NCBI GenBank assembly: GCA_013297755.1
Contig: JAAFIH010000031.1
Coordinates: forward strand, 1-55,451
Direction of reading: 5' to 3'
From: Cytophagales bacterium
GTDB lineage: Bacteria; Bacteroidota; Bacteroidia; Cytophagales; UBA9547
DNA: 55,451 bases
The notes under the pieces: model-generated
What the model saw: the letters and a program-made list of their open reading frames with translations, nothing else
What the model was told of the DNA's origin: nothing
Databases searched by the model: none
Shown: positions 1 to 15,829 of the stretch, piece by piece
Layout of the letters: every line of letters starts with the position of its first letter
Numbering within the stretch: position 1 is the first letter of the stretch
Program-made: the position numbers and the translations under genes

Positions 1-108
1 CAGCTTTAAACTTAATTAATTGCATAACAGCATGAGACTCTAAGCATTGCTCCCTTGGGAGAAATGCGTCTATTTTAGTAATATTTTTATAAAATTAAAA
101 TAAATATC

Positions 109-369
109 TTAAATGCGTTTCCCCTGTATATAATCAGGTCTGTTTTCATTTCTCATTCCTGCATTTATTTTAGGATCACAATCTTCATTTGTTACAGCTG
201 TATAAGTATATGGTTTAATAAGAGGATTTTGTGGATATTCGTTATATACTGTTAGTTCACATTTACATTTTTCTTTATTACAAGAAAATAATAATGTAGT
301 TGCGAAAATTAATAAGATGTATTTTATTGATACACCTGTGTTGATTAAGATTAAGATTGACTTTTTCAT
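109..369 (-). CDS. Small lipoprotein of unknown function
   Basis: I do not recognise the family. The 86-residue protein starts with a Lys-rich n-region and a hydrophobic stretch ending in LLFSC, which reads as a lipobox (Cys near residue 30), so it is probably an outer or inner membrane lipoprotein. The frame is open further upstream to 510, but that extension reads through an intergenic hairpin repeat and C-rich repeats, so I start at the ATG complementary to 367-369. The mature part is short, has two early Cys residues (KCKCEL) and ends naturally. It resembles, in type only, the other small lipoprotein at 3100. Membrane location is inferred; the function is unknown. Confidence 0.55.
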   Translation of the reverse strand: MKKSILILINTGVSIKYILLIFATTLLFSCNKEKCKCELTVYNEYPQNPLIKPYTYTAVTNEDCDPKINAGMRNENRPDYIQGKRI

Positions 370-419
370 TTTATAATATTTAGGATTCAAAAATCTATCT
401 AATTTTGATAGCCACCAAA

Positions 420-439
420 TCTGTGCAAGGTTGCAGAGA
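420..439. repeat. Hairpin repeat TCT(G)TGCAAGG-TTGCAGAGA, copy 1
   Basis: An imperfect hairpin whose core CTGCAAGGTTGCAG recurs as a perfect hairpin at 3029-3050. It lies upstream of the small lipoprotein gene at 109-369. It could be a dispersed REP-like unit or a transcription stop; no T-tract follows. Confidence 0.45.
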
Positions 440-498
440 GTTTGCCAAGTTAGTTTTGCAAAAAATGTACGAATGAAAGGCCCCCAAACCACCTGAAT

Positions 499-527
499 GA
501 AAGCCCCCAAACCCCCGAAGAGGGCTT
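499..527. repeat. C-rich palindromic unit, copy 1
   Basis: Reads GAAAGCCCCCAAACCCCCGA followed by a G-run and CTT, so the ends AAGCCC and GGGCTT can pair. Related units lie at 760-784 and 1564-1592. A short related stretch (GGCCCCCAAACC) sits just before it at 479-490. Confidence 0.55.
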
Positions 528-618
528 AAAAGCGATTTTTTTTTTATTTTTTAGGCTTACGCCTGTTTATTTCTACCAACCTACTATTCTACCAATATCA
601 CGCTAAAAAGGCGAGTTC

Positions 619-668
619 CTACCAACCTACCATTCTACCATTCTACCATTCTACCAACCTACTATTCT
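619..668. repeat. Octanucleotide tandem array (CTACCATT/CTACCAAC)
   Basis: About six 8-bp units of the form CTACCATT or CTACCAAC run in tandem, and three more related units lie just upstream (572-596). It is non-coding and lies among other dispersed repeats. Confidence 0.6.
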
Positions 669-673
669 CAAAT

Positions 674-753
674 GCCCCACCCCCTGCCCCCTCATCCCAT
701 AGGGAGGGGGAAAATAGGATTTTTTTATTTTTTAATGCAAACGCATTTATAAA
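674..753. repeat. 80-bp GC-rich dispersed repeat, copy 1
   Basis: This block starts GCCCCACCCCCTGCCCCCTC and continues through CCCATAGGGAGGGGGA, an A/T run and a short AATGC..ACGCATT hairpin. A nearly identical block of equal length lies at 20388-20467, about 19.7 kb away in the nitrate locus. The GC-rich half is strikingly unlike the AT-rich surroundings. Confidence 0.7.
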
Positions 754-759
754 GCTACT

Positions 760-784
760 GAAAGCCCCCAAACCCCCGAAGGGG
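760..784. repeat. C-rich palindromic unit, copy 2
   Basis: GAAAGCCCCCAAACCCCCGA followed by AGGGG. It matches the units at 499 and 1564, but the closing GGGCTT arm is partly lost. Confidence 0.5.
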
Positions 785-981
785 AAATTGCGATATTAGC
801 AATTTTATTTAAGCCACAATTGTACGAATGTTTATTTCAATAAATTTATTTCAAACCGAAAAATAAAAATTACATTCCTATAATTTTTCTCCCACTTGGG
901 GAGAAATTAAAAGAGGGGTATAAAATAAGAAATATAATATTTGTTTTTCGGTTTAATTTAATTTGCAAATTTTATCAAAAA

Positions 982-1245
982 TTAAAAAAATAGTGTTAAA
1001 ATTTTTTCTTTTAAAACTACACCTATAAAAATAACCTCGCTATTTCTAAGTTGATACCCAACAAAATATTCATCTATTTCTATTGTAAAAAGATAGGGAA
1101 ATCCTGTAATAGATCTTGCATTAAAATCATCCATGGTAGTGGCTATTTTAATATTATTAACGAGTTCTTTAATTTTTGTTTGTGTACTTTTGGGTAATTG
1201 AAGTGCTTGATTAGCAAAACCTTCTTCAAATTTCAATACCATCAA
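982..1245 (-). CDS. RelE/ParE-type toxin of a TA pair
   Basis: The 87-residue protein has the size and pattern of RelE/ParE-superfamily toxins: an N-terminal helical pair (about residues 5-45) followed by beta strands with the pattern FTIEIDEYFVGYQLRNSEV and IFIGVVLKEK near the C-terminus. Family members are mRNA interferases or gyrase poisons; which one applies here cannot be told. Its start overlaps the stop of the upstream 67-aa gene by 4 bp (ATGA type), the usual translational coupling of antitoxin and toxin. The second Met (residue 2) is an equally possible start. Confidence 0.7.
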   Translation of the reverse strand: MMVLKFEEGFANQALQLPKSTQTKIKELVNNIKIATTMDDFNARSITGFPYLFTIEIDEYFVGYQLRNSEVIFIGVVLKEKILTLFF

Positions 1246-3099: not shown

Positions 3100-3588
3100 A
3101 TGAAAAAGACAATTATAGTAGCTGCAGCTTTGGTAGCAATGATGGGGTGTGGAAAGCAAACACCAACGCCACAAGGAAGTATAACAACTTATCCTAGAAA
3201 AACAAAAGGAAATATTGAATTTTATATTGGTTGGGAAAGACAACTTACAAACTGTGTTGCTTCTTCTCAGAACCAATTTTCAGTTATTGGCTATTTTACA
3301 AAAGATTCTAGTAAACTAGAAAATGGGCCATATTTTGACACAAAAGATTTTTCAAGTTCTAATGATTATAGGTACTATGGCACTGATATAGAAGAGGGAT
3401 TTTTGTATTATAGGATTAGAAAATATCATTATAACAACTGTTTACCAAAATATAGCAATAATCCTATAATACCTTTAGAAAGAGATAATAGAGGAAAAAT
3501 TTTAATAGAAGGAGGTATGCAAAAAACAATACGCTATTCGTTTGATCGTGACAGTATTACTTCCATAGAAATCAAAGAATATAACTAA
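3100..3588 (+). CDS. Lipoprotein of unknown function
   Basis: The 162-residue protein opens MKKTIIVAAALVAMMGC, a clear lipoprotein signal with Cys17. The mature part is rich in Tyr, Asn and Ser and looks like a small beta-rich periplasmic or surface domain; I do not recognise a family. Its TAA stop (3586-3588) is the first triplet of the 123-bp repeated control block that precedes the PLD gene, so the block was joined right at the gene end. It is probably not part of the downstream operon. Confidence 0.6.
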   Translation: MKKTIIVAAALVAMMGCGKQTPTPQGSITTYPRKTKGNIEFYIGWERQLTNCVASSQNQFSVIGYFTKDSSKLENGPYFDTKDFSSSNDYRYYGTDIEEGFLYYRIRKYHYNNCLPKYSNNPIIPLERDNRGKILIEGGMQKTIRYSFDRDSITSIEIKEYN

Positions 3589-3708
3589 ATATTACATGCC
3601 TACTCCCACCATCTTTTGTGTTTTGGTAATATTGTCAAAGCACAAAAGATTTTTATTTTTGTAATAATTTAATTTTTTATTTTTATAATTGTGGATTAAT
3701 AAATTTTT
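3586..3708 (+). promoter_or_regulatory. Duplicated control block, copy 1 (PLD operon)
   Basis: A 123-bp block repeated with the same length at 6213-6335. It contains a 40-bp inverted repeat (3611-3650), here with three or four mismatched pairs, directly followed by a Bacteroidota -7 element TATTTTTG (3654-3661); a TTG at 3632-3634 gives 19-bp spacing to a -33 element inside the palindrome. That layout fits a repressor covering the promoter. The PLD gene starts 30 bp after the block. Confidence 0.75.
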
Positions 3709-3738
3709 AGGGAAAAATGTTTGTATAAAAATTATTAA

Positions 3739-5010
3739 ATGACTGAAATTAAGGCACATCTTACAAATATAAAAGAACAAATAGAAACAGAACTGCTCAA
3801 AGCAAAGCAAAGTATTTTAGTGGCTTCTGCATATTTTAAAGATGAAGAACTGGCTAATTTATTAATTCAAAAAGCAAAATCTGGTTTGTCAGTAGATTTG
3901 ATTATTTCTGATAGTAAAAAAGTAAATGACGACAGAAACCCTGTTGATTTTGATGCTATCATAAAAGCTGGCATCAATTTTTATCGATTGGGTGAAGAAA
4001 AGTCAAATATCATGCACCATAAATTTTGTATTATTGATTCAGAAACGGTCATTACAGGATCTTATAATTGGACACATGGAGCAAAAGGCAACGAGGAGAA
4101 TATTGTCATTTTTAAGGATAAAACAATTGCAGAACAGTATCAAACAAGATATTATGAATTACGAGCCTTAAAGCCTACTTTTAATTCAGAAACTTTAGAA
4201 ATAGATGTAAACATACATGCAAAAAACACTCTTGTAAGAAAAAACGAATTATTTAAAATAGATTGGGCAACACAAAATGCAAACTTGGTTACTATCAATG
4301 GTGTTGAAAAAAACTTGTCTGATACAGATTATTTTACAATAACTGAAGATACCATTTTTGTACTTGAAGCCAAAAATACAGAAACAGATAGACAGAAATC
4401 AAAATCAATACTTATACGAGTAGTAAAGCCAATAAATATCACATTTGAAATTGAAAATGAATTTATAATTCGATCCCAATCTACAACTTTGCGATGGAAA
4501 GTAGAAAATGCTGAAAGTATTGAAATTTTACCAACTGTTGGTATAGTAGACAACGATGGTAAGCGAAAAATAAATCCATCAGAATCAACCGTTTACAGAT
4601 TGGTTGCTACTGATAAATTAAACGAAATAACTGAAAAACAAATACTCATAAATGTATATCCTACGCCTGTTATTGAGCATTTAATCATACCATCGCCCAC
4701 TGATATAAGAATAGAAGCCGTTTTTGAAACACTTTCGCACACAATACCAAGTACGCTTAATTTGTCAAACATCAAACATCAAAACTTTGATTTTCCAAGA
4801 CTTCTACATATTAATACAAACAATACAAACACAAAACCAACTGTAAAGCAAGTAAGTGAAATTCTCAAAGTACATACAAACGATTTGTATAGATCAATAG
4901 GTGAAGTAGAAAACCTAAAAATGCGTCTCTTTGATTGGCTTGAAAAAATATTTAATAACAACCCTAAAATGACTGAAATAGTCAAAACAATACGTAAACA
5001 TTATGGATAA
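3739..5010 (+). CDS. PLD-like phosphodiesterase with Ig-like C-terminal region
   Basis: Residues 1-145 form a single phospholipase D-superfamily half with one HKD motif: His93, Lys95 and Asp100 in HHKFCIID, followed by GSYNWT (Ser108, Asn110). Single-HKD proteins usually act as dimers and are often nucleases, though phospholipase activity is possible. Residues 150-320 look like two beta-sandwich (Ig-like) repeats, and 330-423 is helical. There is no signal peptide, so it is probably cytoplasmic. It overlaps the DUF4407 gene by 8 bp and sits under the control block shared with the RecQ-like operon, suggesting a joint role, probably in DNA defence or processing (inference). Confidence 0.8.
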   Translation: MTEIKAHLTNIKEQIETELLKAKQSILVASAYFKDEELANLLIQKAKSGLSVDLIISDSKKVNDDRNPVDFDAIIKAGINFYRLGEEKSNIMHHKFCIIDSETVITGSYNWTHGAKGNEENIVIFKDKTIAEQYQTRYYELRALKPTFNSETLEIDVNIHAKNTLVRKNELFKIDWATQNANLVTINGVEKNLSDTDYFTITEDTIFVLEAKNTETDRQKSKSILIRVVKPINITFEIENEFIIRSQSTTLRWKVENAESIEILPTVGIVDNDGKRKINPSESTVYRLVATDKLNEITEKQILINVYPTPVIEHLIIPSPTDIRIEAVFETLSHTIPSTLNLSNIKHQNFDFPRLLHINTNNTNTKPTVKQVSEILKVHTNDLYRSIGEVENLKMRLFDWLEKIFNNNPKMTEIVKTIRKHYG

Positions 5011-6172
5011 TACAATACGCAATTTTTTTTGGTTTTGCTCTGGAGCCAATTTTTCGATTTTAAAAAGATGTCCAACAGATCATACAAAATTTGTCGGAAT
5101 AGGAGCAACAGTTTTTTTTACAGGTTTATTTGCAAGCATTTCTAGTGGGTATGCGTTGTATTTTGTATTTAATGACATTGTAGAAATAAAACAAAGACTG
5201 GGATTAGCCATTTTTTTTGGTATATGTTGGGGTGCTATGATTTTTAACTTAGATCGCTATATTGTTTGTAGCATGAAAAAACATAATAGCAGGTTAAAAG
5301 AATTCTGGATTGCATTACCAAGGTTGATTTTTGCCTTTTTAATAGCTATGGTTATGTCAAAACCATTAGAATTGCAAGTATTTCATACGTCTATTGAATA
5401 CAAATTAGGAGATATGGAACAACTAGAAAGGCGAAAAATAGAAGTATCAAAAGAAAGTAGATATTTAAAGCAAATGAATGAATTAGTTGCTGAAATTGAA
5501 ACATTACAAAATGCTATTGATATAAAAAAAAATAATTTTGATAATTTAATAGCTTCAGCTAATTGCGAGGCTGATGGTACTTGTGGTTCTATGATTAGAG
5601 GTAAAAAAGGGTTGTATTTAATAAAAAAAGCTGCAGCTGATAAAGCTAATTTGGATTATGAATACACTAAAAATAAAAATCAACCACAAATTGACTCAAA
5701 AAATATTAAATTAGATAGCGTTAGGGAGCTATTGGAAAAAGAAAAAAGAAAAATTAAATTTGGATCTTATGATGGATTTGATAAACGATTAGCTGCTTTG
5801 GGTAGTGTTTCAGACGAAAACGAATCTATAAGATTAGCAAGTATGTTTTTGATGTTATTGTTTATGGCTTTGGAAATGTCGCCTATTTTTGTAAAGTTAT
5901 TTTCACCTAAAAGTGCTTATGATGATTTGTTGGAACTAAAAGAACATAACCATGAAATATATAAAATCGAAAAAATGTCTAAAATAAATCAAGCTACAAA
6001 TGAAAGGTTGCAAATAGTGTTGGAATCAAGCAATAATAAAATAAGAACAGAACTAGATGGTAATACAGATTTGATGAAAAGTATAATAGCAGCAGAACAA
6101 GAAATAGCCCAAGTTCAAATAAATCAATGGAAAGAAAATGAAATAGAAAAGATTAAAAATAAGACTTCATAA
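5003..6172 (+). CDS. DUF4407 family membrane protein
   Basis: The 389-residue protein matches DUF4407 in layout: the opening FWFCSGANFSILKRCP, membrane segments at about 28-55, 69-90 and 100-122, a long charged coiled coil (about 130-260) containing Cys residues (ANCEADGTC), a fourth membrane segment near 280-303 and a second helical tail. The conserved NLDRYIV follows the second segment. The family has no settled biochemical role. Its ATG lies within the 3' end of the PLD gene (8-bp overlap), so the two are translationally coupled. It could anchor or sense for the PLD enzyme at the inner membrane (inference). Confidence 0.8.
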   Translation: MDNTIRNFFWFCSGANFSILKRCPTDHTKFVGIGATVFFTGLFASISSGYALYFVFNDIVEIKQRLGLAIFFGICWGAMIFNLDRYIVCSMKKHNSRLKEFWIALPRLIFAFLIAMVMSKPLELQVFHTSIEYKLGDMEQLERRKIEVSKESRYLKQMNELVAEIETLQNAIDIKKNNFDNLIASANCEADGTCGSMIRGKKGLYLIKKAAADKANLDYEYTKNKNQPQIDSKNIKLDSVRELLEKEKRKIKFGSYDGFDKRLAALGSVSDENESIRLASMFLMLLFMALEMSPIFVKLFSPKSAYDDLLELKEHNHEIYKIEKMSKINQATNERLQIVLESSNNKIRTELDGNTDLMKSIIAAEQEIAQVQINQWKENEIEKIKNKTS

Positions 6173-6212
6173 TCAAAATAAAAGAATATATATATATATG
6201 TAAATTTTGCTT

Positions 6213-6335
6213 TAAATATTACATCCCTATCCACACAATCTTTTGTGTTTTGGTAATATTACCAAAACACAAAAGATTTTTATTTTTGTAATAATTTAAT
6301 TTTTTATTTTTATAATTGTGGATTAATAAATTTTT
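6213..6335 (+). promoter_or_regulatory. Duplicated control block, copy 2 (helicase operon)
   Basis: Same 123-bp block as at 3586. Here the palindrome at 6238-6277 is perfect: ATCTTTTGTGTTTTGGTAAT followed by its exact reverse complement. The -7 element TATTTTTG is at 6281-6288, three bases after it. The GTG start of the helicase gene lies four bases after the block end, leaving a leader of only about 45 nt. Perfect symmetry over 40 bp next to a promoter suggests the operator of a dimeric or tetrameric repressor. Confidence 0.8.
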
Positions 6336-6338
6336 GAC

Positions 6339-9300
6339 GTGCAATTCAAAGCTGCTTATATTATAGATGAGTTAAACTTATTGTTAGAAAAAATAATAAG
6401 TAAGGATGTAATTTTTGATTTTTATAGTAGCAAAATAAATTTTAACATAACTGGATTGCCAGAAGTTTTAAATTTTTCAGATGCTACGCCATTATTAAAA
6501 ACTGCTTGGAATATTATTAATAGAGGAGAACCAACACGATCTTCATTAAAAATTGCAAATTTTATATTAGAAAAAAATCTTGGTAATTTATATTCAGGGC
6601 TTACAAGTGCAGGTTCTCTCATAAAATTTAATATTGATAATTCTTTTACCAAGGAAATTGATAATTCAACATTAACTGATTTATTAAAGAATTTTAATAT
6701 AAATCAAGAAAATATAGTTTATGAATCTGGCTTAGGTTGTTTTAAAATATATAGTACACTGAGTGAACTTATTAGTATTGCTCAAATTCAAAAAACAATT
6801 TTACTACTATTGCTACTAGAAAATACTTCTAATGATATAGCAATAAATATTTTAGGTGTAAATAATGAAATTTCTAATCTAATAATTGATGACCTAAATG
6901 AACTTTTCCAAAATTTAAACAATTTGATTCAATCAAATGAAAAAAAAATACCCAAATTACTAAAATCAAATTCTAAAACAGATATTTCAATATCTTACAA
7001 CTTAGATTGTGTTTGCAACTACAAAATTGACTCTTTTATTACACCTATTGAAAATATAAATGATTTTATACTTACAGATAGAAGGATTAAATACAAAAAT
7101 TTAGGTAAAACAAGGGTTGAAGTACAAAAAGAAATTAATGATATTGGCGAGGAAATAGAAAAAAATGTTCATTTTTTTGATTTTGATACCTCAGAATTAA
7201 AGGCATCGATGCTATATTTTTTGCAAAATATTTTTCGAAAAACAGGTTTTAGACCTGGCCAAGAAGCAATTATCGACAAAGCATTAATTGGTGTTGATGT
7301 CATTGGTTTGCTACCAACTGGTGGTGGTAAATCATTAACATATCAAATTTGTGCCATTTTGCATCCTGGGGTTACTATTGTAATAGACCCCATAAATTCA
7401 TTAATGAAAGACCAGTATGATAAATTGATAGAAAATGGCATTACTAAAATAGCCTTTATTAATTCATTTAAAAATAAAGAAGAAAAAGAACAAAGTATCA
7501 TTCATTTAAAAAATAGTAGGTATCTTTTAGTATTTATATCCCCTGAACGATTTCAGATTCAAGATTTTAGAAATTCGTTGTTGAGTTGCACAAACAATAA
7601 TATCCATTTTAGCTATGCAGTAATAGACGAAGCTCATTGTGTATCTGAATGGGGGCATGATTTCAGGCATGTTTACTTGAATTTAGGTGATAATATAAAT
7701 AACTATTGCAAATCTTATAAAATAAAAAAAGTTCCTTTAATAGCCCTTACTGCAACTGCTTCTTTTGATGTGCTAGCAGATGTTCAACGAGAATTAAAAA
7801 TGCCAGAAAATGCAGTTATCAGTTTGCCACCAAACGCTATTGATAGAAAAGAACTTAACTTTGAAATAATTGAAGCCAAAACAGGTGATGTTAATAGAAT
7901 TAAACAGTGGGAACGTGAAAAAAAAATAGGGGCTTTTAAATATCCTATTATAGACCAAATACTACAATCACTTCCTGATAAAATTAAAAAATTAGAAAGT
8001 AAAATTGGTATTATAAATCCAAACCCTTTGTTTTTTACTAAAAACATTGATAACTTATTTTTAAATGCTGGATTAATTTTCTGTCCTACAAAATCAGATA
8101 CTTTACACAATGGTGTTGTAAAATTATACAAAAATCTATCAGAAAATAAAGATTATTTAAAAATAGGTACTTTTATAGGAAATACAGATGATTATAATAC
8201 TGTTGAGAATATAACAATAACTGCTTTTGCCGATAAATCTTACGAAAATCAAGATGAATTTATAAAGAACAAAAGTAATTTAATGATTGCCACCAAAGCA
8301 TTTGGTATGGGAATAGACAAGCCAAATATTAGGTACACAATTCATTATACTTTTCCAAGTTCTGTTGAAAGTTTTTATCAAGAAGCAGGAAGAGCAGGTC
8401 GAGATAGAAGCCCCTCAATAAGTACAATAATATACGACAAAAACGATTTACAAAGTAATTTAGATTTTTTCAAAAATTCATTCAAAGGTATAGAACGAGA
8501 AACAGGGATTATAAATGAAATTCTAAATGAAGTAAAATATGAAGATTGTATTAATTTACAAATATTAAAAGCAATTGTAAAGGAAAAGTATCCAGAAGTA
8601 GAACAAATTAAATTTAATAATAGTAATTTCAGATACCTTTATGTTTATGGCAAATTTAACGCTAACCTTAATGATAGTATAAAAATTTGTTTACTTGACT
8701 TTCATCGTAATTTCACAAGTTATCCTAACTCAACTTCAAATTTTGACATAATTAAAGCAGAAGAAATACGTAAATACATAGAAGATTATTTAATTAAAGA
8801 ATGTAAAGAAAAAAACTATGCTGAATGGCTTAATATAAAATCATCGCCAGGTATAAAAACAATGATTGATTCTAATAAAGAAGAAAAATATTGCTTGTTG
8901 ATAAGTTTTAGTAATGATGTTTTTTCCGAAATAACACGTTTGATAATTAAAAGCGGATATACAAATTTTAAAGAAAATATTACTCGCCACGCTTACCAAT
9001 TTTCTCATAATGTAACAGATTATGTTGATAAATTAAAATATAGATATAAGCAAAGTACAGGAGCATTAGAAGAAGAATTAAATTTAAAAGAAGAAACACT
9101 AGAGTACATCCAAAACAACTATTTTAAAATAAGAGATTTTGCTGACACTCAAAGGATGATATACCGAATGAGTATTGTTGGCATAATTGACGACTACGAA
9201 ATTGATTTCAGTCGTAGAACTTTTACCGTATATTTTAAATCAAAAACTGAAAAAGAATATTTAAAATGTTTTGAAACATACTTACGCAGATATTTGGGAA

Positions 9301-10013
9301 ATAATTCTACCCAAGAATGGATAAAAAAAGTAGCTTCAAGCCAAGGAGAATCTATTTTACATAGAGTTTTATATACAGTTATCGATTTTATAAATGTAGT
9401 AATTGCTCAAAAACGCAAACTTTCTATTGATTTTATGCAAAGTTTATGTGAGTTGGGCACACAAAATGGTGATAAAATTTTTAGAGAAAACATAGTATTT
9501 TATTTTGCCTCTAAATACACCAGAGTAGATTATTTGCCAAAAGATATGAAAGATGATAGTATTACAAATATTGAAATAATCAAAAAATATATTGGCTTTT
9601 TATATCAAGCTCCAGATGGCTTAGGTAGCCAATTAGACAATGCAAAACATTTGAAAGGTGCTTGCGAAATAGCCACTATTTCAATGACTGATTTTAATTC
9701 AAACAAAAAAGTTTCTTTAGATTTATTGACCTGCTTTTGCCTTTTTGCTTTGGATGCCAAAGAAAATATGGCTTCTGACCTCAATAGTCCACTTTTGATA
9801 AAAGCAATTGAATTATATAGAACTGGTTTTAGAAATTTATTGCGTTTAGAAAACGAGTCTTGGGATAGCGTAAAAGATTTATTAAAAATGTATAACGAAA
9901 AAATAATTGACCTAAATCCAATTATTTCAAATCAATTAACAGGGCTTACAAACGAATTATTAGTAAATAGAACAACATATAAATTAAGTAAATTTTTAAA
10001 TTACATATCATAA
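6339..10013 (+). CDS. Large RecQ-like DNA helicase with extra N- and C-terminal domains
   Basis: Residues about 290-720 are a superfamily 2 RecQ-type helicase core: Walker A LLPTGGGKS (Lys331), DEAH box (430-433) in the RecQ hallmark DEAHCVSEWGHDFRHVY, motif III LTATAS, ATKAFGMGIDKPNIR and motif VI QEAGRAGRD (681-689). The core contains an insertion of about 80 residues after motif III. At 1224 aa it is twice the size of housekeeping RecQ: residues 1-280 and 720-1224 match nothing I recognise, and the zinc-binding Cys set and HRDC domain are not evident. The start is GTG at 6339. The stop abuts the ATG of the coiled-coil gene. It probably unwinds DNA in a defence complex (inference). Confidence 0.85.
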   Translation: MQFKAAYIIDELNLLLEKIISKDVIFDFYSSKINFNITGLPEVLNFSDATPLLKTAWNIINRGEPTRSSLKIANFILEKNLGNLYSGLTSAGSLIKFNIDNSFTKEIDNSTLTDLLKNFNINQENIVYESGLGCFKIYSTLSELISIAQIQKTILLLLLLENTSNDIAINILGVNNEISNLIIDDLNELFQNLNNLIQSNEKKIPKLLKSNSKTDISISYNLDCVCNYKIDSFITPIENINDFILTDRRIKYKNLGKTRVEVQKEINDIGEEIEKNVHFFDFDTSELKASMLYFLQNIFRKTGFRPGQEAIIDKALIGVDVIGLLPTGGGKSLTYQICAILHPGVTIVIDPINSLMKDQYDKLIENGITKIAFINSFKNKEEKEQSIIHLKNSRYLLVFISPERFQIQDFRNSLLSCTNNNIHFSYAVIDEAHCVSEWGHDFRHVYLNLGDNINNYCKSYKIKKVPLIALTATASFDVLADVQRELKMPENAVISLPPNAIDRKELNFEIIEAKTGDVNRIKQWEREKKIGAFKYPIIDQILQSLPDKIKKLESKIGIINPNPLFFTKNIDNLFLNAGLIFCPTKSDTLHNGVVKLYKNLSENKDYLKIGTFIGNTDDYNTVENITITAFADKSYENQDEFIKNKSNLMIATKAFGMGIDKPNIRYTIHYTFPSSVESFYQEAGRAGRDRSPSISTIIYDKNDLQSNLDFFKNSFKGIERETGIINEILNEVKYEDCINLQILKAIVKEKYPEVEQIKFNNSNFRYLYVYGKFNANLNDSIKICLLDFHRNFTSYPNSTSNFDIIKAEEIRKYIEDYLIKECKEKNYAEWLNIKSSPGIKTMIDSNKEEKYCLLISFSNDVFSEITRLIIKSGYTNFKENITRHAYQFSHNVTDYVDKLKYRYKQSTGALEEELNLKEETLEYIQNNYFKIRDFADTQRMIYRMSIVGIIDDYEIDFSRRTFTVYFKSKTEKEYLKCFETYLRRYLGNNSTQEWIKKVASSQGESILHRVLYTVIDFINVVIAQKRKLSIDFMQSLCELGTQNGDKIFRENIVFYFASKYTRVDYLPKDMKDDSITNIEIIKKYIGFLYQAPDGLGSQLDNAKHLKGACEIATISMTDFNSNKKVSLDLLTCFCLFALDAKENMASDLNSPLLIKAIELYRTGFRNLLRLENESWDSVKDLLKMYNEKIIDLNPIISNQLTGLTNELLVNRTTYKLSKFLNYIS

Positions 10014-10850
10014 ATGGACGAAAATATAAAAATACAAGAAGAGTTTGAGAGTTTAATTGAACAACTTGAAAAACTAAAAAAAATCAATGAATTGACTTCT
10101 GCAAATACTCAAAATACAGAGTTATTAGTACTTGAATTTAAAACATTTGCACACAAAATAAATGACTTCAAAGAATTTGTGAGTAATGATTTTAATAATA
10201 AATCTCTAGAAATAAATAATCTAACTAAAAACCTTGGTATTGCAATAGATTCAATAAATATACAAGCAGAAGGTATTACAGGTCGTGTAGATGAATCTTT
10301 AAAAAATATAGAAAATGAAATTATAAAAAAAATCACTGATGCTGAAAAAACATTAAACAAAATAATAAACAATAATCAAAAATTAAATATTGAACTTTCA
10401 GAAATATTAAAAAATGATTCTAATGAAAATCAAAAGTTAATTTTTGAAAAAGTAGATACATTATTTAAAGAGATTAAAATTACCAATAAAAAAACATTTG
10501 AAGTTTTAGATGTTTTCAAAAATGAAACAACTATTCTAATTCAAAACACCGAGCAAAATCTAACCACAAAAATTGATAACTTAAAAATACAAGATTCTTT
10601 TGCTTTAATAGCTACTAATTTTGAAACTGTAAATTCAAGTTTTAAATCATTAACTAAAGAAATAATAGAAGGAAATAAAGAAATCAAACTTAAAATTGAT
10701 GCAAATTCTACCCATTTAAAAAACAATCAAGAGGCTATTCTAAAAGAATTTACAACCCAAAAAGACGAATTAACATCAACTAAAAACCTTCTATATTTTA
10801 CTATTTGTTTAGTAATAATTTTAATTACCATCACCCTCACCCTCAAATAA
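10014..10850 (+). CDS. Tail-anchored coiled-coil protein
   Basis: The 278-residue protein is nearly all helical, with long heptad-like runs (residues 10-255) rich in Lys, Glu, Asn and Ile, ending in one hydrophobic segment (LLYFTICLVIILITITLTL, about 258-276) at the very C-terminus. It is thus a cytoplasmic rod held in the membrane by its tail. The ATG follows the helicase stop with no gap, and the next gene starts 6 bp after it, so it is firmly in the helicase operon. A plausible role is tethering the helicase to the membrane or forming an oligomeric scaffold; no enzymatic motif is present. Confidence 0.7.
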   Translation: MDENIKIQEEFESLIEQLEKLKKINELTSANTQNTELLVLEFKTFAHKINDFKEFVSNDFNNKSLEINNLTKNLGIAIDSINIQAEGITGRVDESLKNIENEIIKKITDAEKTLNKIINNNQKLNIELSEILKNDSNENQKLIFEKVDTLFKEIKITNKKTFEVLDVFKNETTILIQNTEQNLTTKIDNLKIQDSFALIATNFETVNSSFKSLTKEIIEGNKEIKLKIDANSTHLKNNQEAILKEFTTQKDELTSTKNLLYFTICLVIILITITLTLK

Positions 10851-10856
10851 CCCCCC

Positions 10857-11954
10857 ATGCCCCTAGTCCTCCAAATATTACTATACTGTATTGTTTTGGT
10901 AGTATTTCTTTTCTTTTTAGTATTTGCGTGTATCATGCTTGTAGAAAGTGTTGTAACACAAGTTAGGGACAAGCTAAAAGGTCGCGGGTATTATAAAAAA
11001 GATGAAATTGAATGGATAATAAAAAGCACCTACACAAATGCTGGTCTTTTTGTGCATCAAACTTTATCCAATACCTATCTGGAGCGAGACTGTATTATGT
11101 ATCTCGAAAGTTCCTACAACCAAGTTTGTAATGAATATATTGCCCAAAACCACGACAATTTGGTGAGTGAATTCAAGAAAAAAGGCTTCAAATTTGTGTA
11201 TCTGCCCAAGTCAATCGCCACCTTAAACCATCAAAACGATATAGCCTATATTAGGTTCAAATATCCACTTCTCCATAACTTATCCGACACCGAAATTTTA
11301 GAAATATATGCCCAATCTACCGCCCAATCAAACTTACAGGCCATGTACGATGCCATTATCCAAAGCCTAGACCTATCCACACTGGCTTTTCCTATTTTGA
11401 TAAAACCACATAATGGAAACATGACCAATCATGCAGTTTTTACAAAATACGACACTCAAAATAAATTTAGAGGCGAACGATTTAGAGAATTTAGGGATAA
11501 AAATATAGATGACAAAATATATTTTAAATACGAAATTATGCAATTTGATACAACAGGATTACTGCCTGAGATAAATGAAAAATTAAAATTGTATCTACAT
11601 TTTTTGTGGAAATACGATAACCTCGAACAAGGAGAATTTATGTTCCAAAAGGTATTGCGGGCTGATGGAAAATATAAACCACCTGAGTATTTTTTAGAGG
11701 ATGAATTTAATAACAAAAATGGACTTTTACCAGAACTCAAAACCCAAATAGATACCCTTTTTGCCAACAACGAATCGCACATTGTGGCCGATGCTATGGT
11801 GTATATGCTATTGCAAATGAAAAATCATAAACCTGAAATATTAAACAAATTGCAACCATTTATAGAAAAAAATAAACTGCAAAACATAGACCAAAATGTG
11901 TATATAAGCAAGCTATATATTACAAATCCAATACTTTCCTTACTGCTTCTTTAA
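10857..11954 (+). pseudogene. Truncated membrane-anchored winged-helix protein, copy 1
   Basis: Residues 1-356 are almost identical (about 14 differences) to the full-length protein encoded at 12675. The DNA from 10854 to 11926 aligns without a gap to 12672-13744. After residue 356 the reading frame runs into the 3' end of the oppositely oriented MazF-type gene and stops after nine unrelated residues, so the C-terminal winged-helix-like domain is missing. The N-terminal membrane helix (residues 6-32) is intact. It starts 6 bp after the coiled-coil gene and would be co-transcribed with the helicase. The truncated product may still be made and be useful as a membrane partner. Confidence 0.75.
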
Positions 11955-12270
11955 TTTCATCAAGCGTATCCTTATCAATGTTTCCGAGTTTTTTAATTAG
12001 CCGTTCTTGTGAGATTGAACGAATTTGAAAGCAATCAGCTGAGGAAATTTTAGATAGTCCGTTTATTGTATTTGGTTCTATTTTTACCATCCATGGAGCA
12101 ATGTCATAGCGGTCTTTCCAATCTGTGATGGGTACAATAACTTTCAAGGGCAGTTTGCCAAGTCTATCATCATTTACAATAATAGCAGGACGTTTTTTTT
12201 GTATTTCAGCACCTTTAGTTGGGTCAAGGTCGATTATCCAAATTTCACTTTGTTTCATAAAACTGTTCAA
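11920..12270 (-). CDS. MazF/PemK-type toxin
   Basis: The 116-residue protein has the MazF/PemK pattern: EIWIIDLDPTKGAEIQKKRPAIIV, then LPLKVIVPITDWKD, a conserved Ser-Asp-like region (ISSADCFQIRSIS) and a C-terminal helix. Members are sequence-specific mRNA endoribonucleases. It overlaps the upstream antitoxin gene by 26 bp if started at the first Met; the second Met (residue 5, KQSEIWIIDL) is the more usual start. Its stop codon lies within the last bases of the duplicated segment of copy 1, so the cassette junction runs through the toxin end. Confidence 0.8.
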   Translation of the reverse strand: MNSFMKQSEIWIIDLDPTKGAEIQKKRPAIIVNDDRLGKLPLKVIVPITDWKDRYDIAPWMVKIEPNTINGLSKISSADCFQIRSISQERLIKKLGNIDKDTLDEIKEAVRKVLDL

Positions 12271-12457
12271 AATCGAGTGTTGTAAATGCAGTTAAGTTTT
12301 TGTCATTTACATAATCGCCATACAATTCATTGGCTGCTATTTCCATTTGGTGGCTCAACTCCTCTTTTTTTATAGACTTGATGGTTTCTTCTACCACATA
12401 AAATCGTTTTGTTATTGGCAAGCGCTGTATTTCTTGTATAATCTCTATTGTTTGCAT
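12245..12457 (-). CDS. Antitoxin partner of the MazF-type toxin
   Basis: A 70-residue protein directly upstream of and overlapping the MazF-type toxin. It starts MQTIEIIQEIQRLPITKRFY, a helical pattern common in Bacteroidota antitoxins paired with MazF or RelE toxins, with an acidic Tyr- and Asp-rich tail that would occupy the toxin. No AbrB/MazE beta barrel is evident, so its DNA-binding mode is unclear. The pair is read opposite to the flanking membrane-protein genes. Confidence 0.7.
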   Translation of the reverse strand: MQTIEIIQEIQRLPITKRFYVVEETIKSIKKEELSHQMEIAANELYGDYVNDKNLTAFTTLDFEQFYETK

Positions 12458-12674: not shown

Positions 12675-14117
12675 ATGCCCCTAATCCTCCAAATATTACT
12701 ATACTGTATTGTTTTGGTAGTACTTCTTTTCTTTTTAGTATTTGCGTGTATCATGCTTGTAGAAAGTGTTGTAACACATGTTAGGGACAAGCTAAAAGGT
12801 CGCGGGTTTTATAAAAAAGATGAAATTGAATGGATAATAAAAAGCACCTACACAAATGCTGGTCTTTTTGTGCATCAAACTTTATCCAATACCTATCTCG
12901 AGCGAGACTGTATTATGTACCTCGAAAGTTCCTACAACCAAGTTTGTAATGAATATATTGCCCAAAACCACGACAATTTGGTGAGTGAATTCAAGAAAAA
13001 AGGCTTCAAATTTGTGTATCTGCCCAAGTCAATCGCCACCATAAACCATCAAAACGATATAGCCTATATTAGGTTCAAATATCCACTTCTCCATAACTTA
13101 TCCGACACCGAAATTTTAGAAATATACGCCCAATCTACCGCCCAATCAAACTTACAGGCCATGTACGATGCCATTATCCAAAGCCTGGACCTACCCACAC
13201 TGGCTTTTCCTATTTTGATAAAACCACATAATGGAAACATGACCAATCATGCAGTTTTTACAAAATACGACAATCAAAATAAATTTAGAGGCGAACGATT
13301 TAGAGAATTTAGGGATAAAAATATAGATGACAAAATATATTTTAAATACGAAATTATGCAATTTGATACATCAGGATTACTGCCTGAGATAAATGAAAAA
13401 TTAAAATTGTATCTACATTTTTTGTGGAAATACGATAACCTCGAACATGGAGAATTTATGTTCCAAAAGGTATTGCGGGCTGATGGAAAAAATAAACCAC
13501 GCGACTATTTTTTAGAGGATGAATTTAATAACAAAAATGGACTTTTGCCAGAACTCAAAACCCAAATAGATACCCTTTTTGCCAACAACGAATCGCACAT
13601 TGTGGCAGATGCTATGGTATATATGCTATTGCAAATGAAAAATCATAAACCAGAAATATTAAACAAATTGCAGCCATTTATAGAAAAAAATAAACTGCAA
13701 AACATAGACCAAGATGTGTATATAAGCCAGCTATATATTACAAAAAATTATGATATATTTCTTACCGATTTTGGTAATAAAGAAGTAAAACTAACAGCCT
13801 TGAGCAAAATAGTATATCTTCTTTTTTTGCGGCACCCAGAGGGTATTTATATCAAACGATTGTGCGAACATCGCCAAGAATTACTAGAATTATACCAAAA
13901 ATTATCCAATAAATCGAGCAACCACGATATAGAAAAAGCCATAGACGATTTGGTAGATTACACCAACCCATCTATCAATCAAAAATGTAGCCGCATAAGA
14001 GAGGCCTTTATATTGAATATGAGCATAGAATACGCCAAATACTATGTAGTTTCGGGCAAGCGTGGCGAGAGGTATAAAATTAATTTGCCACCAGAGCTGA
14101 TTGTTTTTGAATCGTAA
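12675..14117 (+). CDS. Membrane-anchored protein with winged-helix-like C-terminus, full copy
   Basis: The 480-residue protein has one N-terminal membrane helix (about 6-32), a cytoplasmic middle (33-380) with no motif I know, and a C-terminal domain (about 385-480) with the pattern LTALSKIVYLLFLRHPEGIY..INQKCSRIREAF..YYVVSGKRGERYKI. The order of helices followed by a terminal hairpin is like OmpR-type winged helices, and the same domain recurs in many Bacteroidota proteins. If it binds DNA it would be a ToxR-like membrane-bound regulator; this is inference. It is preceded by 217 bp of non-coding sequence and is nearly identical to copy 1 over 1,073 bp. Confidence 0.65.
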   Translation: MPLILQILLYCIVLVVLLFFLVFACIMLVESVVTHVRDKLKGRGFYKKDEIEWIIKSTYTNAGLFVHQTLSNTYLERDCIMYLESSYNQVCNEYIAQNHDNLVSEFKKKGFKFVYLPKSIATINHQNDIAYIRFKYPLLHNLSDTEILEIYAQSTAQSNLQAMYDAIIQSLDLPTLAFPILIKPHNGNMTNHAVFTKYDNQNKFRGERFREFRDKNIDDKIYFKYEIMQFDTSGLLPEINEKLKLYLHFLWKYDNLEHGEFMFQKVLRADGKNKPRDYFLEDEFNNKNGLLPELKTQIDTLFANNESHIVADAMVYMLLQMKNHKPEILNKLQPFIEKNKLQNIDQDVYISQLYITKNYDIFLTDFGNKEVKLTALSKIVYLLFLRHPEGIYIKRLCEHRQELLELYQKLSNKSSNHDIEKAIDDLVDYTNPSINQKCSRIREAFILNMSIEYAKYYVVSGKRGERYKINLPPELIVFES

Positions 14118-15199: not shown

Positions 15200-15829
15200 A
15201 TGCTAAAAAATGAACTTAAAAATATCATTTCAGGAACGGGCAAAGTTAGCCATGGAGAACTTATCCAAGCAACAGCCAATTACCTTAGAAAAAGCCCGTC
15301 AGCAGGTGCAGTGGCTGAAACAAAACAGTGCAACAGACAAAAAGAAACAGAAAAGCTAATTGAATTTATCAATATAAATAACCTTTGGAATTGTAATATT
15401 GATTTTGATTTATTTTTATCGGCAGGTGCAGAACAAAGGGTGTTTATAAAAAATAAAAATAAGGTTCTAAAACTTAACGATGCCATTTATTACTCTTATT
15501 GGACAGATTACTTAGATAATCTTTTGCTACACAATTATTTTTTTTCAGACACTGCCTACACTTTAATAGGATTTTATAAATCAGATGCAAATTTAATTTA
15601 TGCTTTAGTTGAACAGAATTATGTAGAGGCAACAGAACCAACCAAATTAGAAAATGTAAAAGAATATTTACTAAATAATGGTTTTGAATGTACCAAAAAC
15701 AACGATTATTATAACCCAGATTTAGGAATTATTTTAGAAGATCTGCACGATGAAAATGTACTCACTGCAAATGGAATACTTTATTTTATCGACACTGTTT
15801 TTTATATTAAAAATGAGTTCTATTATTGA
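15200..15829 (+). CDS. Polyvalent-protein kinase-like domain protein
   Basis: From residue 70 on it matches the kinase-like domain known from polyvalent proteins of phages and conjugative elements in Bacteroidota: a glycine-containing loop GAEQRVF (76-82), a Lys in VLKLND (Lys91), then LEDLHDENVL (180-188) with the HxxN-type catalytic loop His183/Asp184/Asn186, and FIDT (Asp198) where protein kinases have DFG. Residues 1-60 look like a linker or fusion remnant (GTGKVSHGELIQA). In such elements these domains are thought to modify host factors on entry. As a free 209-aa protein it is probably a remnant excised from a larger one. A TATCTTTG -7-like element lies at 15173-15180. Confidence 0.7.
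   Translation: MLKNELKNIISGTGKVSHGELIQATANYLRKSPSAGAVAETKQCNRQKETEKLIEFININNLWNCNIDFDLFLSAGAEQRVFIKNKNKVLKLNDAIYYSYWTDYLDNLLLHNYFFSDTAYTLIGFYKSDANLIYALVEQNYVEATEPTKLENVKEYLLNNGFECTKNNDYYNPDLGIILEDLHDENVLTANGILYFIDTVFYIKNEFYY

Follow-up and report, generated by a model that had tools for sequence, protein, structure and literature searches.

We analyzed a 55,451-nt contig of a Cytophagales bacterium (JAAFIH010000031.1, one whole contig of the 4.24-Mb genome GCA_013297755.1), referred to here as the window. A gene pair encoding a PLD-family protein and a DUF4407 membrane protein lies in it directly ahead of a second pair encoding a RecQ-family helicase and a tail-anchored coiled-coil protein. 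The features are listed in Table 1, with lengths in amino acids (aa). A first-pass annotation made from the sequence alone had described two adjacent gene pairs under near-identical 123-bp control blocks, the PLD gene coupled to the DUF4407 gene by an 8-bp overlap, and a 1224-aa RecQ-like helicase abutting a tail-anchored coiled coil. The open reading frames (ORFs) and both blocks were found at the positions given in the table, and the domain and hydropathy results below agree with that description.

Table 1. Features of the two gene pairs, their control blocks and the helicase protein. Nucleotide positions refer to the window.
Feature	Position	Strand	Details
PLD-family protein gene	3739..5010	+	423 aa; ORF
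DUF4407 membrane protein gene	5003..6172	+	389 aa; 8-bp overlap with PLD gene
RecQ-family helicase gene	6339..10013	+	1224 aa; GTG start
Tail-anchored coiled-coil protein gene	10014..10850	+	278 aa; abuts helicase gene
Control block A	3586..3708	+	imperfect palindrome 3611-3651; TTG (3632) - 19 - TATTTTTG (3654-3661), promoter-like
Control block B	6213..6335	+	perfect 42-bp palindrome 6237-6278; TATTTTTG at 6281-6288
Helicase N-domain	aa ~1-290		family-specific; structure model
Helicase RecQ core	aa ~294-706		PTGGGKS at 326, DEAH at 430
Helicase C-terminal region	aa ~707-1224		family-specific; structure model

The gene directly after the helicase was found to encode a hydrophobic C-terminal tail in 70 of 77 loci, counting the window and with three duplicates removed, compared with 23 of 357 control ORFs (130-380 aa) taken from elsewhere in these loci. 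The partial L018 and L148, and L155, were in neither the 77 nor the 70 loci. The product of this next gene had a median length of 226.5 aa, and the median gap between the two genes was -4 bp. The seven exceptions had either no next gene (L184, L203, L147) or one without a tail (L172, L201, L150, L152); L184 and L201 run to the contig end. The window belongs to this family, having both the C-terminal helicase region and an abutting gene with a hydrophobic C-tail, the single hydrophobic segment of the coiled-coil protein being at aa 253-271. These results demonstrate that the helicase and the coiled coil are a conserved, widespread two-gene module of an apparently unnamed family.

The window helicase matched only DEAD and Helicase_C above cut-off in Pfam, with a Cas3 match below cut-off (E up to 1). 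It passed the RecQ subfamily cut-off (TIGR00614, 260.6 bits vs 219.8) and missed the RecQ equivalog cut-offs (TIGR01389, 291.8 vs 640.2; PRK11057, 233.8 vs 1015). Structure models of the N- and C-terminal regions had a mean predicted local distance difference test score (pLDDT) of 90.4 and 84.0, respectively. Foldseek returned no PDB match to either model at E 0.001 or better, and a further fold comparison gave a best Z of 3.6 for the N-region and 8.2, to helical stretches, for the C-region. The C-terminal region found relatives in 8 of 198 genomes of the phylum when used as a single query and in 23 of 395 as a profile; this profile, of which the window is itself a part, matched the window helicase at E=1.9e-97. 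In the GTDB species collection 58 loci were found, belonging to Bacteroidota and, by record title, several other phyla. No relative of the C-region was found in viral contigs, and phage records matched the RecQ core only, none of them covering over 80% of the query. A congener genome (G396) has a helicase that matches at 45% over the N-region and is cut by the contig end; no DUF4407 was found in that genome.

Most homologues of the helicase have a DUF559-like PD-(D/E)XK nuclease domain ahead of the RecQ core in the same protein. DUF559 was above the Pfam cut-off in L022, L153 and the E. coli member, and weaker in L017 and L020. Scores with the family's own nuclease profile were bimodal, with fused members at 45.6 bits or more and the others at 1.7 or less; the lowest fused score, 45.6, belongs to a contig-cut protein, and the rest were at least 71.9 bits. 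As the seeds of this profile came mostly from the fused set, only the gap between the two sets is informative. The same profile gave no hit in the window helicase even with an E-value limit of 10. A tree built from 69 helicase cores placed the nuclease-less proteins in one 18-row clade (100/100) that includes the window, plus the separate row L019, a pattern that requires two changes under a midpoint root. Loss of the nuclease domain in the window's clade is likelier than gain, and only likelier because the root was placed at the midpoint. Two proteins have extra N-terminal domains, one without a Pfam match (L145) and one with Methyltransf_31 below cut-off (L019). In L016 (8637-12439) the Walker A and DEAH motifs are gone and both end regions and the coiled-coil partner are kept, hinting at a non-enzymatic role.

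We then considered the genes surrounding the nuclease-less pairs. In L167 the order is HsdM-HsdS-McrB-McrC-119 aa-helicase-coiled coil-HsdR with gaps of at most 13 bp; Pfam supported genes of this type for HsdR and for homologues of McrC, HsdM and HsdS. L164 and L168 combine HsdM and HsdR with a protein of 585-589 aa whose nuclease matches are below cut-off. The pair follows McrB-McrC in L171 and precedes it in L142, and in the separate row L019 it is followed by BrxA, BrxB and BrxC. A methylase-specificity gene and a WYL regulator lie on the opposite strand in L163, as does a DrmD-like helicase in L159. The first-pass annotation had called helicase plus PLD a recurring pairing in defence islands. 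In L160 a PLD gene above the Pfam cut-off lies 30 bp past the coiled coil; the PLD gene past the coiled coil of L165 was below the cut-off. At the window, queries for restriction-modification (R-M) and McrBC genes found none within 7 kb of the helicase, and no BREX gene was seen there either.

A different arrangement was seen in enterobacterial plasmids (Raoultella, Klebsiella, E. coli), in which a DprA-like gene precedes a 1558-aa helicase and a 162-aa protein with a C-terminal hydrophobic stretch. The helicase (L155, L156) has HAD, ShosT-like and DUF559 matches in addition to the RecQ core, and the DprA protein matched the ShosA and PsyrA models, with PF02481 in the E. coli member. By near identity, this operon was present in 7 of 5,426 E. 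coli genomes, on three chromosomes and four plasmids. The DprA operon links the helicase family, in one lineage, to control of a toxin-antitoxin-like type.

The PLD protein of the window has its PLD domain at aa 17-137 (PF13091, E=5e-26) with a single HKD motif, HHKFCIID at aa 93. Its C-terminal part gave profile matches to tandem modules of other PLD and kinase proteins, which look "Ig-like" by inspection. The protein is a putative nuclease or phosphodiesterase whose substrate may be DNA. Its partner matched PF14362 at E=1.4e-78 and has four hydropathy peaks (aa 30-48, 66-84, 101-119 and 279-297); the single HKD motif and the four peaks had both been read correctly at first pass. DUF4407 is common, occurring in 57 of 198 phylum genomes, and had no plasmid match; a text search of the literature turned it up in just three papers, with no function seen for it. 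No PLD gene stood alongside 29 well-scoring DUF4407 loci with 1.5-kb flanks, which suggested a one-off pairing. This idea was overturned by profiles of the longer, window-like form, which found adjacent PLD-Ig-DUF4407 pairs in at least 12 of 390 order-level genomes, the window included. In L231 (6831-12020) a 169-aa gene and then a caspase-domain gene come after the pair.

Control blocks A and B are each 123 bp long and align without gaps at 115 of 123 positions (8 mismatches), and block B ends 3 bases ahead of the helicase start. The 42-bp palindrome is perfect in block B and has four mismatched pairs in block A. TAnnTTTG is the Bacteroidota-type promoter consensus. It occurs about 1.5 times per kb in the window, so that a promoter match is weak evidence. 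A 31-base pattern of the element matched exactly at three sites in the 4.24-Mb genome. When up to 3 mismatches were allowed, the sole added match was the other strand of block B, and a reversed-pattern control gave 0. The third copy, on contig C67, extends over about 60 bp at 88-90% identity and lies some 250 bp ahead of a type ISP R-M gene (L023 5967-11346) with Type_ISP_C, ISP_coupler, Mrr_cat_2, ResIII and Eco57I domains. All three copies stand upstream of nuclease- or restriction-type loci. Outside this genome, the matches listed cover only the AT-rich tail of the element and not the palindrome, and the small inverted repeats that lie ahead of nine related helicases appear unrelated to it. 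The block probably works as an operator, and its sharing suggests joint expression of the two pairs; it is not proof of joint action.

We give about an even chance to the reading that the locus comprises two modules, each conserved independently of the other, arranged in tandem with one operator/promoter in duplicate, and with the PLD protein as a candidate trans nuclease. The coiled coil, anchored C-terminally in the inner membrane, would hold the helicase where foreign DNA enters, and the helicase would unwind or move along the incoming DNA. A nuclease would cut this DNA, in cis through the fused DUF559-like domain in most members and in trans in the window's clade. At this locus the PLD-DUF4407 module would supply the trans nuclease, for which its adjacency and its nearly identical control block make it the best candidate. 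Neighboring genes were counted on the same strand within 7 kb, in loci whose flanks add up to 3 kb or more, excluding partial helicases (L158, L184, L187, L193, L203, L204, L215) and duplicates (L140, L017, L143). R-M, McrBC or PLD genes were near 10 of 18 nuclease-less helicases vs 3 of 44 fused ones (Fisher's test, 7.3e-5), R-M or McrBC genes alone near 9 of 17 vs 3 of 44 with the window excluded (2.0e-4), and HsdM alone near 6 of 17 vs 2 of 44 (p=0.004); these p-values flatter the association, since the queries came mostly from nuclease-less loci, which favors the reading given here, and since the nuclease-less clade is a single lineage whose loci are not independent.

Besides these two biases, several observations weigh against that reading. 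The context search found no restriction gene at the nuclease-less loci L170, L173, L145 and L016, and the count missed a PLD protein upstream of the nuclease-bearing helicase in L144, a type I R subunit upstream in L155 and a DUF1998 protein downstream in L154. Of the 12 PLD-DUF4407 pairs, four keep an intact HKD motif (the window, L231, L293 and L294), and the PLD partner lacks it in the other eight; nuclease activity is therefore not a conserved trait of the pair. The type ISP gene behind the third element copy is broken, with an in-frame stop near its start, and this copy is a poor palindrome. The first-pass annotation had proposed one membrane-tethered system of four genes. We rejected this proposal by the annotation's own test, co-occurrence in other genomes: none of the 11 other PLD-DUF4407 pairs had a helicase or coiled-coil homologue in stretches of 9-18 kb, and DUF4407 was not found at the 20 nuclease-less helicase loci outside the window (L159-L173 searched; L016, L019, L142 and L145 viewed). 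Since no other PLD-DUF4407 pair examined adjoins a helicase pair, adjacency and the shared control DNA are what argues for cooperation. The annotation's description of two enzyme/membrane pairs with shared control did hold, in that both pairs are real, conserved elsewhere and have one control element in common.

Nearly as likely as cooperating modules is the accretion of two unrelated defence loci in one island, the second having taken over a duplicated, travelling promoter/operator, so that the pairs are co-regulated without cooperating. Each pair is found without the other in further genomes, and the duplication may be recent, as the blocks are still 94% identical. The element, moreover, is mobile or not confined to a single system, because a copy precedes the unrelated type ISP gene on another contig. 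However, cooperating modules would equally predict identical control of neighbors, and the missing nuclease of the window's clade and the PLD domain of its neighbor fit together. Both of these readings take the block for a promoter/operator. It could instead be a transcription terminator or a small mobile palindrome, as both window copies have, directly past the upstream stop codon, a long inverted repeat with T-rich sequence behind it, and the three copies are scattered over the genome. We regard this as improbable, since the identity of A and B extends past the hairpin to 3 bases from the helicase start and copies A and C have a promoter-like TTG-19-TAnnTTTG overlapping the palindrome, where B has TTA instead of TTG.

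The role of each pair can also be read differently. PLD-Ig-DUF4407 may serve as a receptor or anchor in the membrane and not as a nuclease, its front domain varying between active PLD, dead PLD and kinase; in some cases it would act within a contractile injection system, of which DUF4407 may be a membrane part. The eight pairs lacking HKD agree with this. Among them, L298 adjoins tail sheath, tail tube and Pvc16_N genes and L300 adjoins Pvc16_N, and L230 and L301 have flanking genes in common with these two. In L302 (6599-12889), VWA, PP2C and kinase genes are followed by two DUF4407 genes, and the kinase occupies the place of the PLD protein and has the same C-terminal modules. Nevertheless, the four pairs that keep HKD, the window among them, had no injection genes in the stretches read, and we consider the receptor or anchor reading rather unlikely. 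It is much less likely still that the helicase pair serves DNA repair or replication and not defence. Its core is of the RecQ family, and several nuclease-bearing members lie among genes that, judged from their sequences, seem to be housekeeping; however, its distribution in the phylum (8/198 and 23/395 genomes) is sparse, it is carried on plasmids, and it is placed inside R-M, McrBC and BREX loci. An extension of the tandem-module reading, which we put forward only tentatively, is that helicase and coiled coil form a portable unit for DNA translocation, tethered to the membrane, which can work with its own nuclease or with type I R-M, McrBC, BREX or, here, PLD-DUF4407, nuclease loss going with the borrowing of another.

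The first-pass annotation knew of no named system with this make-up, and the comparisons agree: PADLOC (PADLOC-DB 2.0.0 (2023), six proteins of the locus), Pfam and NCBIfam gave single-domain or sub-cut-off matches only. PADLOC-DB contained no system with the make-up of the helicase module and gave no hit for DUF4407, and the literature searched, mostly outside subscription journals, contained no description of that make-up. The term 'RecQ' is absent from the main text of PMC12839542, PMC12458937, PMC13092281 and PMC9519451. The window helicase shares its core with the RecQ family, but differs by its extra N- and C-terminal regions without a confident fold match and by a membrane partner that looks obligate. 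A RecQ core is also common to PsyrTA/RqlHI, in which a RecQ-phosphoribosyltransferase toxin is paired with a DprA-like antitoxin, and the enterobacterial members of the family share with it the upstream DprA-family gene and the ShosT toxin model match in the helicase. The window helicase, in contrast, has DUF4407 and the coiled coil as neighbors in place of DprA and lacks a phosphoribosyltransferase domain among its Pfam matches. No membrane coiled coil appears in the abstract that describes PsyrTA (PMC4670107).

The best PADLOC hits of the window helicase were the DpdF models of Dpd, but it stayed below the equivalog cut-off (NF041063, 154.3 vs 550). The PADLOC 'DpdF' model PDLC02868 (1078 positions) covers aa 471-1471 of the E. 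coli helicase; it may mix this helicase family with DpdF, and some members may already be filed under another name. Zorya likewise has a membrane protein with a long coiled coil beside a helicase. The ZorA match to the window coiled coil was weak (0.0058), its single hydrophobic segment is C-terminal, unlike in ZorA, and neither ZorB nor another Zorya protein was found by PADLOC among the six proteins. The PLD domain of the window protein is of the type of DrmC, MkoB and MkoC in DISARM and Mokosh. The protein fell below the DrmC equivalog (NF038319, 25.1 vs 133) and matched MkoC at 3.8e-07 and MkoB at 0.001, but its helicase and DUF4407 partners differ from those of both systems, and no Mokosh model, MkoA and MkoC included, was among the 25 PADLOC families listed for the window helicase. 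Type I R-M, McrBC and BREX operons encode nuclease-less relatives of the helicase inside or alongside them. We class the system as helicase-nuclease restriction, a kind known already, with the membrane partner as the new element.

If these readings are correct, restriction operons of Bacteroidota hold an overlooked membrane-bound helicase subunit pair, and one family connects R-M, McrBC and BREX with nuclease-helicases that stand alone and with an enterobacterial version regulated by DprA. The family would then allow a direct test of whether part of restriction takes place where DNA enters the cell. Should the unit indeed be portable, membrane restriction would be an add-on common to otherwise unrelated defence systems. 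DUF4407, for its part, gains a recurring partner in the PLD-type protein.

Downstream of the locus, a 365-aa gene (10857-11954), which begins 7 bases past the coiled-coil stop, is a truncated copy of a 480-aa gene (12675-14117), the repeat starting at 10854/12672. A PemK/MazF-like pair (11920-12457; toxin gene 11920-12270) sits between the truncated and the full copy. A few kb downstream, a protein with a Kinase-PolyVal domain is encoded at 15200-15829 (PF18762, 2.7e-61).

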